Program-made: the position numbers and the translations under genes
Notes under the pieces: generated by a model
What the model was told of the DNA's origin: nothing
What the model saw: the letters and a program-made list of their open reading frames with translations, nothing else
The model's database searches: none
Shown: piece after piece, positions 53,896 to 58,845 of the stretch
Numbering within the stretch: position 1 is the stretch's first letter
Layout of the letters: every line of letters starts with the position of its first letter
NCBI GenBank assembly: GCA_947497145.1
Contig: CANMFQ010000001.1
Span: 186,001 to 250,000 of the forward strand
DNA length: 64,000 bases
Direction of reading: 5' to 3'
From: an uncultured Flavobacteriaceae bacterium
Lineage (GTDB): Bacteria; Bacteroidota; Bacteroidia; Flavobacteriales; Flavobacteriaceae

Positions 53896-54204
53896 AGTCT
53901 TGTAAATTTAAAATGTTAGTGTAGGCTTTCAAAATTTACCCATTCGCTGGGCTTACAAAGATGGAAAAAAAGCACTGGTTTTAAGGTGGTATTTTAAAGA
54001 TTCCATGACAAAGTTTTTAACACTAAATGTTGAAATCTAGGCTCGGTACTGATGTATGCTAACTTTGTGTGAGAATAAAAATTCTAAATAAATGTCTCAA
54101 AAAAAATAAACCAAAAAGTATGTTTGTGAATATACTTTTTGGTTTATAAATATCTTGTAAAAAAACAGGAATTTACTTTTAGAAAAAGCGCTTTTTATTT
54201 TAAA
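53896..54204. other. Gap upstream of nrdB with a terminator-like inverted repeat
   Basis: The region holds the nrdB promoter area and, at 54107-54146, a 15-bp inverted repeat described separately. No other gene is supported. Confidence 0.45.
54107..54146 (-). terminator. Minus-strand terminator with a 15-bp stem
   Basis: Arms 54107-54121 and 54132-54146 are perfectly complementary (TAAACCAAAAAGTAT and its complement) around a 10-nt loop. Read on the minus strand the stem is followed by TTTTTTTTGAG, a classic terminator. No confirmed minus-strand gene lies just upstream of it; it would insulate nrdB from the unit at 54.4-54.7 kb. Confidence 0.75.
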
Positions 54205-54369
54205 ATGCTCTTTCCTTTTAGTATATCAACAAAAACAGGAATGGCTTTAACTGCTGTATCGTTTATTACTATAGGTAAGCGTAGAGGAAAGTGCGAAAAA
54301 GGTGCTTTTAAAGGGAAAGAGGTACATGATAAAGAAGGTGGTTTTTTAATCGCTACTGATTATTTGTGA
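54205..54369 (+). CDS. Possible small basic protein, uncertain
   Basis: From ATG 54205 the frame gives 54 residues: a hydrophobic start (FPFSISTKTGMALTAVSFI) and then a Lys/Gly-rich tail (TIGKRRGKCEKGAFKGK). A second start at 54241 would give 42 residues. The codon use looks like the neighbours, and a terminator follows at 54449-54480 in the same direction. No family is recognised and no promoter is clear. It may equally be a non-coding spacer, so the call is weak. Confidence 0.28.
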   Translation: MLFPFSISTKTGMALTAVSFITIGKRRGKCEKGAFKGKEVHDKEGGFLIATDYL

Positions 54370-54448
54370 AGGCTAAGGTGCGGTTCTTTTGATTTGATGT
54401 TTGCAAAGCAAAGTATGACGGGCTGTTCACTAGCCGTGTTAAAATAAA

Positions 54449-54480
54449 AAAAAGGTTTGAAATTTGCATCAAACCTTTTT
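54449..54480 (-). terminator. Bidirectional terminator, 3' end of the candidate ncRNA
   Basis: Arms 54449-54460 and 54469-54480 (AAAAAGGTTTGA and its complement) form a 12-bp stem with loop AATTTGCA. A-runs and T-runs flank both sides, so it can act on both strands; on the minus strand it follows the candidate RNA directly. Confidence 0.85.
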
Positions 54481-54715
54481 TTAGGATACTACCATTCCGT
54501 ACGATTCTCCTAGCGTATTATAAATAATATTAGCTGCGATGGCGCTGACTTAGGTAGTTCCCCCGAAACCTAAAATCGAGCAATCACCTTGTTCAAACTA
54601 GTTGGCAAGATGCCCAATATGCAACTATTCGTTAGACGAGTGGGCTTATAGAAAGAACAATAACTGTTCTGATTATTCGCCTTCTCTAGAATCGTACCTT
54701 AATGGAATGGTAGTT
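54449..54715 (-). ncRNA. Candidate structured non-coding RNA gene
   Basis: On the minus strand a promoter-like TTGACA-N19-TAAAAT (54753-54723) predicts a start near 54715. The transcript would then be a 227-nt sequence (54714-54488) closed by long complementary ends: 54488-54498 with 54704-54714 (11 bp, perfect), and 54499-54513 with 54686-54697 (about 12 bp with a small bulge). Inside, hairpins GAACA/TGTTC, TAGTTG/CAACTA and TTAGGT/ACCTAA can form. A rho-independent terminator at 54480-54449 follows directly. No coding frame of note is present on either strand. Family is unknown; a 6S-type RNA (Rfam 6S-Flavo) is one hypothesis, and a miniature inverted-repeat element is the main alternative. 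Confidence 0.55.
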
Positions 54716-54722
54716 TCATAAA

Positions 54723-54753
54723 ATTTTAAGAGTTCCTTTTCCCCTTTTGTCAA
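54723..54753 (-). promoter_or_regulatory. Promoter of the candidate ncRNA
   Basis: On the minus strand TTGACA occupies 54753-54748 and TAAAAT 54728-54723, separated by 19 nt. The start of transcription would coincide with the first base of the closing stem, which strengthens the RNA-gene reading. Confidence 0.5.
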
Positions 54754-54950
54754 TCGTATTTGTATTTTAAATTCTTCTTGAAGTTTTATCTGATTAATTG
54801 TACTGAGATTGTAATTGGTTAATTATGGGGGAATTATGGCAAAACTACAATTTTTAAAGGTTATCATCCAATAAAAATTATTGATATTTTTGTGCTAAAA
54901 ATGTTCTCTTTTTTTTATGGCGTATTACTCTTACATTCATTGCATTTATT

Positions 54951-55493
54951 TTATTGCTTTTCGGCAATAAAATCTCCCGTTAAATGAACGGTATTCCCTT
55001 TACTGTTTTCTAAACTTATATTTAATTCTCCGGTTATTACGGTATCATTGCTGTGTGTAATTTGAATTTTTCCTTTTCTTGCGAAAAAAGGTATTTCTCC
55101 TAATGGTTTTATGTTCGCAAAGCCAAAAACACCATCAAAATAATTTAATAAACTATCAAAATTTCTTGAGACTTTATAAGAGCCTTTTTGAATTTTTGAA
55201 GAGGTGTTTTTTCGGCATAGTAGAAATTGCATTGTGTTGCACGAATTGTTGTCAGTACATTTGAATATTAATGTTGAATACGACGTGCCATCACTAGCTT
55301 TATTGATTACGTTTTCATAATGAATTACGCCTTTAAGCTCTTCATTGAGTCCACCCGTAGCTTTAAAGGTGTATTCTCCGTAATACATTGTATTGGCAAC
55401 TGTTTCTTCGTTGAATTTTGAACTAGAAATCAATAACGAGAAAACCGGTATGCAAAGGCATAACCTTGAGAGCTTTGAAAATAATGGGTGCAT
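54951..55493 (-). CDS. Exported protein of unknown function
   Basis: The 180-residue protein has a hydrophobic leader (LCLCIPVFSLLISSS). The mature part is beta-rich, with YYGEYTFKATGGLNEELKGVI, STLIFKCTDNNSCNTMQFLLC (two Cys pairs), FGFANIKPLGEIPFF, and a C-terminal GELNISLENSKGNTVHLTGDFIAEK. The ending resembles small surface or periplasmic beta-sandwich proteins of flavobacteria whose last strand reads as x-L-x-G-x-F. I do not recognise a family. A 43-residue small ORF lies 27 nt upstream on the same strand, possibly in the same unit. Confidence 0.65.
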   Translation of the reverse strand: MHPLFSKLSRLCLCIPVFSLLISSSKFNEETVANTMYYGEYTFKATGGLNEELKGVIHYENVINKASDGTSYSTLIFKCTDNNSCNTMQFLLCRKNTSSKIQKGSYKVSRNFDSLLNYFDGVFGFANIKPLGEIPFFARKGKIQITHSNDTVITGELNISLENSKGNTVHLTGDFIAEKQ

Positions 55494-55520: not shown

Positions 55521-55652
55521 TTAGTCTTTCAAAGTATTTTTGGCTATTTCATGTGTAGCAATGGTATCAGTATTGCTGTTTGCTTTTTCAGTTAAAACTG
55601 AAATAAAAAGCATGATTGCTAAAACTAATAACATATAAAAACACCTTTTCAT
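55521..55652 (-). CDS. Possible 43-residue membrane or secreted peptide
   Basis: ATG on the minus strand at 55652 opens a frame of 43 codons ending TAA at 55521. The product starts MKRCFYMLLVLAIMLFISVL (a positively charged end and a hydrophobic core like a signal peptide or single membrane helix) and continues with a short polar tail rich in T, N and K. It lies 27 nt upstream of the 180-residue exported protein gene on the same strand. No family is recognised; the signal-like layout is the only support. Confidence 0.45.
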   Translation of the reverse strand: MKRCFYMLLVLAIMLFISVLTEKANSNTDTIATHEIAKNTLKD

Positions 55653-56122
55653 AGTAGCTGATTTATTAGGTTATTTTGATTTGTATAGTATTTAAGGTTG
55701 ATATGACTAAGGTAATGCGAGACATCAGTTTTATAAACTCGTTATGTGCAAATGGTATGTTATCTTGTATAAATGGTAAATGATTTGGTGATAGATTTTG
55801 ATTATTTTGGCAATAAGAGCGGGTGTGCTGTTGTATATTGCTGCTCATTCTTATGCAAAGTTTGATTTACCGCATTTATTTTTGGGATCGCGTAATTTTA
55901 TTGTATTTTCAGAATGATTTTTGTTGATTAGGTGCAGCAATATATCGTTGTTTTTTTTTATGAACTGAGCAACGGATGTTATTGAAAATAAATGTCGTAT
56001 TACCTGATTTTTTAACCAACTATACTGAAATAACTTCCATTGATACATGTTTTTGAATTATACTTTTATAACAACTTATATTTGATTAGTAATCTGGGTA
56101 TAAACGTAGTAACTAGGTAATT
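55653..56122. other. Intergenic region before the LytTR regulator
   Basis: No supported gene lies in these 470 nt; the longest minus-strand frames (60 and 65 codons) have atypical composition and no leader or family. The right end contains the regulator promoter at 56052-56084. Confidence 0.45.
56052..56084 (+). promoter_or_regulatory. Promoter of the LytTR regulator-kinase pair
   Basis: TTTG at 56052-56055, a 21-nt spacer and TATATTTG at 56077-56084 match the Bacteroidota pattern. The leader to the ATG at 56123 would be about 30 nt. Confidence 0.5.
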
Positions 56123-56857
56123 ATGATAGATGCTGTAATAGTAGACGATGAGAAAAAGGCATTGCAAAGCCTATCTTGGGAATTGACAAATTTTAGCAAT
56201 GAAATAAATGTATCAGCGTCTTTTACTGATCCTTTTGAAGCCTTAAGTCATTTAGAAAAGAATACGCCAGATTGCCTTTTTTTAGATATTGAAATGCCTA
56301 CAATGGATGGTTTTCAATTTATTCAAAAGTTAACAAACAAGAATTTTCCCGTAATTATCACTACAGCATACAACCAATACGCTATCAAGGCGCTTAAAAA
56401 TGAGGCTATTGATTATCTTTTGAAACCAATTGATTCTGATGATTTAAAAGATACGATTGTTAAGATTAAAAAGTTTAATGCTAAAAACTACAGCGTAGAT
56501 AGATTAGAGAAGATATTACTTACCTATAATTCAAAAGCGATACACAAAAAAATCACATTCAATACTGATGGGAAATTGGTTTTTTTAGATAGTGATGAAA
56601 TTCTATATGCAGAATCAGATGGTAACTATAGTACCATTCATCTGGCTGATGGTCATAGAATAGTGCTGACCAAAAAATTGAAGGAAGTAAATGAAATATT
56701 ACCTGATGAATCATTCTTTAGAATACATAATTCGTATATAATAAATCTTTCCAAAATAAAAGAGTTTTTAAAAACTGACGGATACGTGATATTAAAACCC
56801 AACCATAAAATACCAGTATCTCGTCAAAAGAAATCTGATTTTCTTGACATGTTGTAA
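56123..56857 (+). CDS. LytTR-type response regulator
   Basis: This 244-residue protein has a receiver domain (VIVDDEKKALQSL, phosphoacceptor D55 in LFLDIEMPTMDG, switch TTAYNQYAIKAL, and YLLKPID). A C-terminal LytTR DNA-binding domain follows, with KLVFLDSDEILYAESDGNYSTI-type sequence split by conserved residues, then DGHRIVLTKKLKEV, FFRIHNSYIINLSKI and KIPVSRQKKSDFL. It should bind promoter repeats when phosphorylated by the kinase whose gene starts 8 nt later. Its targets cannot be read here. Confidence 0.95.
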   Translation: MIDAVIVDDEKKALQSLSWELTNFSNEINVSASFTDPFEALSHLEKNTPDCLFLDIEMPTMDGFQFIQKLTNKNFPVIITTAYNQYAIKALKNEAIDYLLKPIDSDDLKDTIVKIKKFNAKNYSVDRLEKILLTYNSKAIHKKITFNTDGKLVFLDSDEILYAESDGNYSTIHLADGHRIVLTKKLKEVNEILPDESFFRIHNSYIINLSKIKEFLKTDGYVILKPNHKIPVSRQKKSDFLDML

Positions 56858-56865
56858 ATTTCCAT

Positions 56866-58845
56866 ATGCTTACTAACACTCAAAATAAGGAATCCTCCGC
56901 CTATGTACATTTTGTACACGCTTCAAGAAAGAGCTTGTTTGTCGGTTTCTTTTTTATATTTTTTCAGACGTTTTCTCAAATAGTGCCCCCAAGTTTTGCT
57001 AAGGTGGTAGATAGCATCGTTGCAGTAGCTCCTAAAGATTTTACAAATCTTCATACGATGTTTAGGGCCAGTAGAAATGACACTATTTTAATGCGTTACC
57101 TATGTCGAATTTCTTCTGAACAAGACTATAAAAGCGGAGCTGCTTATGCTTTAAATGAACTTGGTAGAAAATACCGAAACATTTCAAATTATGATAGGGC
57201 TATTGAGCTTCACAAAGAAGCATTAGCTGTAGCTGAGGCAGATAAAAATGTGCAATTTATTGCGTTGAGCTTAAATAATTTGGGGGTGGTTTACCGTAGA
57301 ACTTCATCTATACGAACGGCTATGGATTATCATCAAAAAGCTTTGGAGCTTGCAGAAACGGTTGAAAATCCGCCAAAAAGTTTAAGACGTAGCATCAATA
57401 TTTCAGTAAATTCTATTGGCAATCTGTATCGAAAGCTAGAGCAGTATGAGAAGGCTATTGAGTATTTTGAACGGGCGTTACAACTTGAAACCGAATTAAA
57501 TAACCAGCTTGGTCAGGCTATTAATTTTCAAAATTTAGGAAGCTGTAAAGAGGAATTAGGAGATTTAGAAACAGCTTTGGTGAACTATAGAACCTCTTTA
57601 GCTCTTAATGAGAGCATTAATAATAGTCAGGGGCGTATAATTTGTAATAATAGTATTGCTCAAATTTATTTGAAGCAAAACAATCCTGAAGACGCCTTAG
57701 AAATTCTTGAAGCTAATCTTTTAGATGCAAGAAAGTTAGGTGATGGGTTGTTGATTGTGCCAGTATATATTTTTAAAGGTTGGGCAAAAATGAATATGGG
57801 GCAGTATAGGACGGCAGAAAAGGAAATGCTTCACGGTTTGAAGCTTTCTAAGCAGTATAATTTGCCAACATATACCATTCAAGTAAGTCATCTCTTGTCA
57901 GAATTATATAAAAAAAACAAGGACTTTGAAAAGGCGCTTACTTATAATGTTATGGCTGAAGACCTTGAGGAAAAGGTGTTAAATGAGAATACGATTAGTT
58001 ATGTGAATGATATTATTTTTCGCTACGATTCGCAGAAGAAAAGTAATAAAATAGCAATGCTCGCTAAAGAAAATGAGAATGTGAAACTTGAGCTGAGAAA
58101 AAATAGAACTATCTTATTGATAGCAGGTGTGGCGTTGACTTTCTTGGCAGGTATTTTTTACATACTCTACAGGCAATATCAGCTCAAAAATGAGAAGCAG
58201 TTATTGACACTTGAGCAAACAATGCTTCGTAGTCAAATGAATCCTCATTTTTTGTTTAATTCTCTCAATTCTATCAAGCTATATATCATTAATAATGAGC
58301 AAAAGAATGCTGTGTATTATTTGAATAAGTTTTCGAAATTGGTGCGTAAAATACTCGAAGCTTCTTCATTACGAGAAATACCACTTGCTGAAGAGTTGGA
58401 GACAGCGCAATTGTATATGAATATTGAGAATATTCGTTTTTCTAATGAAATTGATTTTCACATAAAAGTTGAAGACAATATTGATGTGCAAAATGTAAAA
58501 ATACCATCATTAATTTTACAACCATTTTTAGAAAACGCCCTTTGGCACGGACTTTCATCAAAAGAAGGGGATAAAAAAATTGTGATAACTATTTCAAAAG
58601 CTACCGAAGAAGGTCATATTCATATTGGCATTATTGATAATGGTATTGGTAGGGTTGCCTCTGAGAAAATAAAATTAGGGAAGGTGCTGAAACGTAAATC
58701 AATGGGTATTGATATAACTAAAGAGCGATTGGCTAATTTTTCAAGAGATTATCAAAATTCTTTCAATCTTGATATTATTGATTTGTTTCATGATGATGGT
58801 GAGGCTAAAGGCACTAAAGTGTCGTTATACATACCTGTTATTTAG
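56866..58845 (+). CDS. TPR-containing LytS-family sensor histidine kinase
   Basis: The 659-residue kinase begins with a hydrophobic leader (LFVGFFFIFFQTFSQ). Residues of about 85-385 form tetratricopeptide repeats (ALNELGRKYRNISNYDRAIEL, SLNNLGVVYRRTSSIRTAMDY, NSIGNLYRKLEQYEKAIEY), then a coiled stretch, one transmembrane helix near 417-435 (LLIAGVALTFLAGIFYILY) and a His_kinase domain. The phosphorylated His461 lies in MNPHFLFNSLNS, and an ATPase lobe follows with LILQPFLENALWHGL and IDNGIGR. The periplasmic TPRs probably sense a protein or peptide partner. It pairs with the LytTR regulator upstream and overlaps the convergent DUF3109 gene by 8 nt. Confidence 0.95.
   Translation: MLTNTQNKESSAYVHFVHASRKSLFVGFFFIFFQTFSQIVPPSFAKVVDSIVAVAPKDFTNLHTMFRASRNDTILMRYLCRISSEQDYKSGAAYALNELGRKYRNISNYDRAIELHKEALAVAEADKNVQFIALSLNNLGVVYRRTSSIRTAMDYHQKALELAETVENPPKSLRRSINISVNSIGNLYRKLEQYEKAIEYFERALQLETELNNQLGQAINFQNLGSCKEELGDLETALVNYRTSLALNESINNSQGRIICNNSIAQIYLKQNNPEDALEILEANLLDARKLGDGLLIVPVYIFKGWAKMNMGQYRTAEKEMLHGLKLSKQYNLPTYTIQVSHLLSELYKKNKDFEKALTYNVMAEDLEEKVLNENTISYVNDIIFRYDSQKKSNKIAMLAKENENVKLELRKNRTILLIAGVALTFLAGIFYILYRQYQLKNEKQLLTLEQTMLRSQMNPHFLFNSLNSIKLYIINNEQKNAVYYLNKFSKLVRKILEASSLREIPLAEELETAQLYMNIENIRFSNEIDFHIKVEDNIDVQNVKIPSLILQPFLENALWHGLSSKEGDKKIVITISKATEEGHIHIGIIDNGIGRVASEKIKLGKVLKRKSMGIDITKERLANFSRDYQNSFNLDIIDLFHDDGEAKGTKVSLYIPVI

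Follow-up and report, generated by a model that had tools for sequence, protein, structure and literature searches.

Does an interval of a flavobacterial genome that has the look of an RNA gene encode an RNA family of its own, and what might such an RNA do? The question arises from a 64,000-nt (64-kb) stretch of DNA of an uncultured Flavobacteriaceae bacterium, the whole of which we call the window. An earlier note, made from the letters alone, had read part of its minus strand as a candidate new non-coding RNA gene with a promoter, a body whose ends pair around internal hairpins, and a terminator, covered by no coding frame. Comparison with related genomes bears this reading out at candidate status, with a covarying multi-branch fold followed by a terminator-like hairpin.

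Limits, novelty and distribution of the RNA

The limits of the alignment and the covariance model place the structured core at about 54483–54719 on the minus strand (237 nt); the 227-nt body proposed earlier was right as a structured element and slightly short in length. The whole stretch from 54717 to 54440 folds with −85.6 kcal/mol (z = −6.87), and none of 200 dinucleotide shuffles was as stable. No listed ORF of at least 60 aa overlaps the RNA, and a terminator-like hairpin with a T run lies directly 3′ of the core (54447–54482, minus strand), both as the earlier note had it. By a rule devised for this analysis, a terminator-like hairpin occurs within 80 nt downstream of the RNA in 45 of 80 loci. 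A second hairpin, AAACCAAAAAGTAT...ATACTTTTTGGTTT, stands at 54107–54146 between the RNA terminator and nrdB; several relatives (e.g., L074, L087, L111 and L113) have a similar hairpin after the RNA, and the type looks like a recurrent flavobacterial terminator.

Scanning the whole window with Rfam 15 at gathering scores returned only a tRNA elsewhere, and no family reached its gathering score over the RNA. A permissive scan of 54200–54900 gave STnc430 as its best row (29.9 vs 47 bits), a match that lay largely over the terminator and the RNA's 3′ end, and eight relatives' loci gave no Rfam match at E ≤ 1. The earlier note had offered 6S-Flavo (RF01685) as a possible identity; we rejected it because the genome's true 6S-Flavo lies elsewhere (on C15, 100.9 bits, over the cut-off) and the RNA, which has no match to that model, falls under every Rfam gathering score. 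RNase P RNA (RF00010) and bacterial small SRP RNA (RF00169) were rejected too, the genome's only matches being on C11 (183.1 bits) and C8 (47.9 bits). A divergent copy of such a housekeeping RNA (6S, RNase P or SRP) would suit the size and the single copy; with all three present elsewhere in the genome and no Rfam match over cut-off, we find the idea scarcely credible. Pairing ends would equally suit a miniature inverted-repeat element (MITE) or other mobile repeat, the note's chief alternative. The RNA, however, has a copy number of one in its genome and one match per positive genome, keeps a shared gene order and has a covarying interior, while viral contigs held no exact match to the 20-mer of its invariant hairpin (described below) and plasmids and phages no blastn match; we rejected this alternative, whose probability we put close to nil. 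In the literature covered, which took in few subscription journals and included PMC9723704, PMC3673130 and PMC4227749, we found no description of the RNA. We are highly confident that it represents a real RNA family that is new to Rfam.

The family occurs in many marine flavobacteria. A blastn search of 59 genomes, including the RNA's own, tallied 18: positives were the own genome, 12 of the 13 others of the genus and 3 of the 22 other family genomes, and two genomes outside the family (G046 and G058) were discounted as weak rows over query edges only. A covariance model built from the 16 blastn-found loci matched 39 of 298 Flavobacteriaceae genomes, in 34 of 236 genera, with one match each (G211, partial over 38 positions, and G236 were weak rows). 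Scanning GTDB contigs yielded at least 120 stretches with the RNA. Most of the 80 listed had titles from within the Flavobacteriaceae (Maribacter, Allomuricauda, Zobellia, Arenibacter, Robiginitalea, Eudoraea, Pricia and others), with Muricauda also among the contig titles and a few titled only Bacteroidia or Bacteroidetes, Cytophaga or Algicola. They include the culturable strains Zobellia uliginosa DSM 2061 and Maribacter polysiphoniae DSM 23514; 40 stretches outside these 80 served solely as a held-out set.

A covarying fold around an invariant hairpin

The consensus structure was computed by RNAalifold with ribosum scoring on an alignment of 55 sequences (A5); a mixed-strand alignment (A2) had been dropped in favour of A3–A5, and antisense model matches at the same positions were weak, none scoring above 26 bits. 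It comprises a two-part closing stem, a weak arm, and the elements P2, P3, P4 with a hairpin, and P5. Changes on both sides were seen in 44 of 63 base pairs and 90.8% of cells pair, in a structure that was itself derived from the alignment used for these counts. The covariation score was 0.288, compared with 0.167 in shuffles and at most 0.084 with slid partners, and none of 500 shuffles of the 55 sequences attained any of five structure measures. Base pairs thus covary across species, as in a structured RNA family, and the window's own sequence is able to form 60 of the 63 consensus pairs. On conservation and covariation, the locus specifies a new structured non-coding RNA family, the RNA itself being a candidate transcript.

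Individual helices (all on the minus strand) contribute to this picture to different degrees. The pairing ends proposed earlier correspond to two closing stems, both of which covary, an outcome that the earlier note had named as support for its reading. The 5′ strand of P1a (54704–54719, pairing with 54483–54498) makes up helices 1 and 2, with both-side changes in 9 of 12 and 2 of 2 pairs, respectively; after 6 unpaired nt on the 5′ side comes P1b (5′ strand 54689–54697, pairing with 54499–54507; helix 3), which contains a conserved GUACG, is paired in 98.8% of cells and changes on both sides in 6 of 9 pairs. The arm is the weakest helix (67.7% of cells paired). Both-side changes affect 5 of 6 pairs in P2 (5′ strand 54630–54635 with 54510–54515; helix 5), which has one A-C mismatch in the window, and all six in P3 (5′ strand 54621–54626 with 54532–54537; helix 6). 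P4 (54585–54612; helices 7 and 8) includes an inner hairpin at 54605–54594 that has one C-U mismatch in the window and both-side changes in 4 of 5 pairs. In the structure alignment P5 spans 54543–54582, and its lower stem, UGCUCGAUU / AAGUCAGCG, bears the invariant hairpin. The earlier structure to which A5 had been fitted (R1) contained neither P2 nor the arm nor the inner hairpin of P4, so the fit did not favour these three helices. The internal hairpins of the earlier note were found where it had placed them.

One part of the molecule follows a different rule. The hairpin in the window, AGGUUUCGGGGGAACUACCU (54552–54571, minus strand), consists of a stem AGGU/ACCU, a bulge CU, a second stem UUC/GAA and a GGGG loop. 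Its sequence GGUUUCGGGGGAACUACCU is identical in all 41 distinct loci found by blastn or by the model. The 19-mer GGTTTCGGGGGAACTACCT, which is the 20-mer without its first A, occurs in all 15 loci that blastn found and all 29 that the model found (41 distinct), the latter being what remained of 39 genomes after 9 not fetched as loci and the own genome; both the blastn and the model queries contain the hairpin motif and hence would favour it, although for most rows it is the whole molecule that carries the score. The first hairpin base is A in nearly all loci and G in L006, L040 and L213. The six inner pairs of P5 are constant in all 55 sequences, and distant members, in loci picked by the 20-mer, keep little besides the hairpin and GUACGG/CCGUAC of the closing stem. 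Searching 395 genomes of the phylum for the 20-mer with up to two mismatches returned six exact matches, all in Flavobacteriaceae, and two with two mismatches outside the family, compared with about five matches for a reversed-pattern control; in the family genomes of this search there were no versions with one or two mismatches. Because stem and loop are invariant without compensatory change, the letters themselves may be recognised by a constant partner.

We looked for such a partner among RNAs by searching for the complement of the hairpin core. TTCCCCCGAA had 241 matches in 12 RNA-positive genomes, a figure that includes each genome's own RNA gene, compared with 110 for the reversed control, and the excess may come from composition or codon use. 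Match numbers were uneven among the 12 genomes. No recurrent complementary target emerged from 30 of the 241 sites, where the sole shared gene was the RNA-adjacent gene A, described below.

The gene cluster and its probable LytTR regulator

Two upstream genes, a link to a LytTR regulator and the invariant hairpin were all absent from the earlier note. The RNA is the last member of a cluster that begins with a gene for a microprotein, B, followed optionally by a gene for a protein of about 180 aa, A; where both are visible, the order is B-(A)-RNA. Gene order was counted over 107 distinct loci out of 123 (14 duplicates were left out, as were L006 and L040, whose 20-mer begins with G), and since flank lengths differ these counts are lower bounds: a LytTR response regulator was upstream and divergent in 78, a kinase was present in 47, the protein A cluster was upstream in sense in 52 and nrdB was downstream in sense in 56. 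The last count confirms the expectation that syntenic copies would be found near nrdB, and it is also what one would expect if the RNA were an attenuator or riboswitch acting in cis on nrdB-nrdA, which lie downstream. Yet the window's RNA is separated from these genes by about 550 nt and a terminator-like hairpin, and in part of the 107 loci genes other than nrdB lie downstream; such a role strikes us as very improbable.

B in the window is a hydrophobic microprotein of 43 aa (55521–55652, minus strand) that starts with M-K-R-C and has one TM stretch by eye. Across loci most versions are 36–70 aa long with a start that is usually M-[KR]-[KR]-C, and B adjoins the RNA directly where A is absent and otherwise lies upstream of A. 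A regex found it upstream in sense in 88 of the 107 loci and in 32 of 37 further loci unused in making the regex, with one match elsewhere in 630,312 bases. By the same regex it was absent from 19 of the 107 (8 of them with less than 1,000 nt upstream) and from 5 of the 37, several of these loci having no upstream sequence. At E < 1e-4 a profile of B matched 42 of the 298 family genomes; relaxing the threshold to E ≤ 0.01 brought the number to 63, with most of the weaker matches falling within long ORFs. By profile, every RNA-positive genome but G211 has B at the RNA's locus (38 of 39; in G226 only at E = 0.0075).

Five genomes were positive for B and negative by the model. Their loci (L212–L216) were read by eye, and with filters off the model scored only the hairpin of L213. 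The RNA with its 19-mer is present in L213, where the B stop codon falls at the edge of the closing stem, and its first part is present in L212 before the contig ends; on reading by eye, no RNA was found in L214 or L216. In L215 (G170), B is followed by a candidate hairpin that retains GGGGAAC on a different stem and is possibly a much diverged member of the family. Similar TTTCAACA...CGTGTTAAAAACTTTG stretches precede nrdB in L213–L217 and are probably nrdB's own promoter or operator.

Protein A (54951–55493, minus strand; 180 aa) occurs at about half of the loci. It was found in 13 of 16 RNA-positive relatives and, weakly, in 1 of 43 RNA-negative ones. Its predicted structure (mean pLDDT 86.7) starts with a hydrophobic helix at the N terminus and is otherwise that of a beta protein, and on this model A is probably exported or anchored. 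We name no fold for A, because neither Foldseek (no match at E ≤ 0.001; top rows at TM about 0.2 to a hot-dog protein, the VtrA/VtrC complex and GFP-like barrels) nor a profile search of PDB sequences (best E 0.14 and 0.55) gave significant matches. Pfam and NCBIfam held no convincing family for A or B.

A short hydrophobic protein encoded beside an RNA in most loci brings to mind a type I-like toxin–antitoxin pair, with B as a small membrane toxin and the RNA as its antitoxin. The RNA gene, however, is not antisense to B, B is kept without a visible RNA in two genomes, and pairing of the invariant hairpin with the B start region was at shuffle level with no excess (88 loci, mean z −0.02; four loci below −2), so that we hold this explanation to be improbable. 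Neither was there an excess of hairpin pairing with the start regions of A (50 loci, mean z 0.03), nrdB (49 loci, mean z −0.25) or the response regulator (88 loci, mean z 0.06).

On the plus strand, the divergent LytTR response regulator (PF00072 and PF04397) lies at 56123–56857, followed by a TPR sensor histidine kinase (PF06580 and TPR families) at 56866–58845. Between the regulator and B, the minus strand carries LytTR-type direct repeats at 55778–55766 (TACCATTTATACA) and 55757–55745 (TACCATTTGCACA), a pair at 55745–55778 with a period of 21 bp, and a weaker pair directed towards the response regulator lies at 56014–56047 on the plus strand. We counted a pair as two TACCATTTATACA-like copies with at most four mismatches each, 20–24 bp apart, in the regulator–B interval of the 79 loci where the starts of both genes could be located. 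B-directed pairs were present in 72 of these loci (shuffle mean 1.6, maximum 5) and regulator-directed pairs in 35 (shuffle mean 2.4, maximum 7), with a repeat consensus drawn from the same sequences as the count; the spacing was exactly 21 bp in 73 of 77 B-directed pairs. Held-out loci had the 21-bp pair in 29 of 31, a figure without a shuffle control. The repeats sit before B, away from the immediate upstream side of the RNA. From repeats, spacing and adjacency we infer that the LytTR regulator probably controls the B-A-RNA cluster at the predicted sites of 21-bp period.

In the own genome, the paired pattern with up to three mismatches occurred at two places, and its reversed control at none. 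The second place (three mismatches; G000:C1:164404-164437, L219) lies close to genes for an OmpA-like protein and a histidine kinase, and is possibly a further regulon member or a chance occurrence.

Candidate roles and comparison with known systems

How the RNA is released bears on whether it acts as a molecule of its own. The TTGACA (54753–54748) and TAAAAT (54728–54723) of the earlier note, separated by 19 nt on the minus strand (54723–54753), are found exactly as claimed and form a promoter-like element by the E. coli consensus, from which the host sigma-A consensus differs. According to PMC9723704, the flavobacterial sigma-A consensus is TAnnTTTG, and the window's TAAAATTTTATG is a partial match to it. 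Over 82 loci, in which the preceding ORF was chosen by a heuristic, the gap from that ORF to the RNA was at least 90 nt in 43 (at least 181 nt in 35) and less than 90 nt in 39; in 19, the RNA lay within 15 nt of the ORF or overlapped it. TA-N(2-4)-TTT stood just upstream of the RNA in 21 of the 43 long-gap loci (shuffle mean 8.4, maximum 16), compared with 8 of the 39 short-gap loci (shuffle mean 4.9, maximum 12). An upstream TTG (−33) did not exceed the shuffle maximum at long gaps (13 of 43; mean 9.7, maximum 18) or at short gaps (13 of 39; mean 7.1, maximum 15). Since the match to TAnnTTTG is partial, the motif is enriched at long gaps only and TTG is not enriched, a promoter of the RNA's own in the window is no more than plausible. 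The long gaps with a promoter-like motif and the short gaps together suggest that the RNA may have its own start in some lineages, while other lineages excise it from the operon transcript. A TGGG[GA]A box was also seen 12–36 nt before the RNA in 14 of the 43 long-gap loci (shuffle mean 0.2; e.g., L025, L028 and L106) and before it in 2 of the 39 short-gap loci (shuffle mean 0.3), and is perhaps an ECF-type −35 element.

These gaps are central to an alternative in which the RNA acts purely in cis: as a structured part of the 3′ UTR or of the operon's end, it would stabilise the B-A mRNA or process it and play no part in trans. The short gaps, the L213 locus with its B stop codon at the closing stem, the constant gene order and the unremarkable TTG frequency are all compatible with this explanation, which we consider unlikely, if well worth keeping in view: the TA-N(2-4)-TTT motif is enriched at long gaps, more than two-fifths of the loci have gaps of 181 nt or more, and a stabiliser would have no obvious need for a 19-mer that stays invariant without compensatory change.

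The most likely reading, which we hold with somewhat more belief than doubt, is that of a trans-acting regulatory RNA of the LytTR two-component regulon. The LytTR response regulator would act at the paired repeats and thereby control the B-(A)-RNA cluster; the RNA would become a separate molecule, made from a promoter of its own at long gaps and processed out of the operon transcript at short ones. The closed multi-branch fold would then hold out the invariant GGGG-loop hairpin, which would bind in trans to a single unvarying partner, be it an RNA-binding protein or a short C-rich site in other RNAs, and this binding would adjust expression of the regulon. Weighing against this reading are the lack of a recurrent complementary site among the 30 examined, the shuffle-level pairing of the hairpin with neighbouring start regions, the short gaps, which suit a 3′ UTR element equally well, the position of the repeats before B, and the genomes and loci in which B or the RNA was found alone. 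We also entertain, as rather unlikely, that a single LytTR-driven operon supplies the RNA together with an exported beta protein and a membrane microprotein, and that the RNA works as a ribonucleoprotein built around the frozen hairpin. Were that so, it would amount to a new Bacteroidota signalling module linking envelope sensing to an RNA-binding partner, with a hairpin frozen at the level of letters across dozens of genera.

Little is known about the regulatory RNAs of Bacteroidota or the proteins that bind them, and the usual RNA-binding proteins Hfq and CsrA are often missing from these bacteria. The family brings with it a hypothesis on its regulator and two undescribed partner genes, and the unchanged 19-nt hairpin offers a natural bait that could expose a conserved RNA-binding protein or target.

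6S-Flavo has a long closing stem, and the new RNA resembles it as a flavobacterial structured RNA with this feature; it differs in size (237 positions vs 108 in 6S-Flavo) and in its separate genome location. As described in PMC9723704, the Rfp sRNAs of Flavobacterium psychrophilum (e.g., Rfp18) are structured intergenic sRNAs. By that description the RNA is like them, a candidate structured intergenic sRNA of the same bacterial family. Because a contig titled Flavobacterium sp. ASW18X (L074) holds the RNA, it may be one of the F. psychrophilum Rfp sRNAs, and its newness is relative to Rfam 15.

Regulators of a similar kind are paired with RNAs in Firmicutes, among them VirR, which carries a LytTR domain. 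AgrA binds direct repeats in the divergent region from which RNAIII, a regulatory RNA, is expressed (PMC4227749); FasA drives FasX and VirRS works via VR-RNA (PMC3673130). The cluster described here resembles RNAIII (AgrA), FasX (FasA) and VR-RNA (VirRS) in combining an AgrA-like or LytTR-type regulator with a candidate regulatory RNA, the regulator being adjacent in the window and a divergent homologue accompanying the 78 of 107 loci counted above. Unlike the Firmicutes LytTR RNAs, the new RNA belongs to another phylum, has no Rfam match and is placed under its regulator by prediction, and its peptide gene is a separate ORF that precedes the RNA. We would accordingly describe the likeness to agr/RNAIII as one of layout, and B-(A)-RNA as an undescribed gene cluster that ends in a new RNA family.
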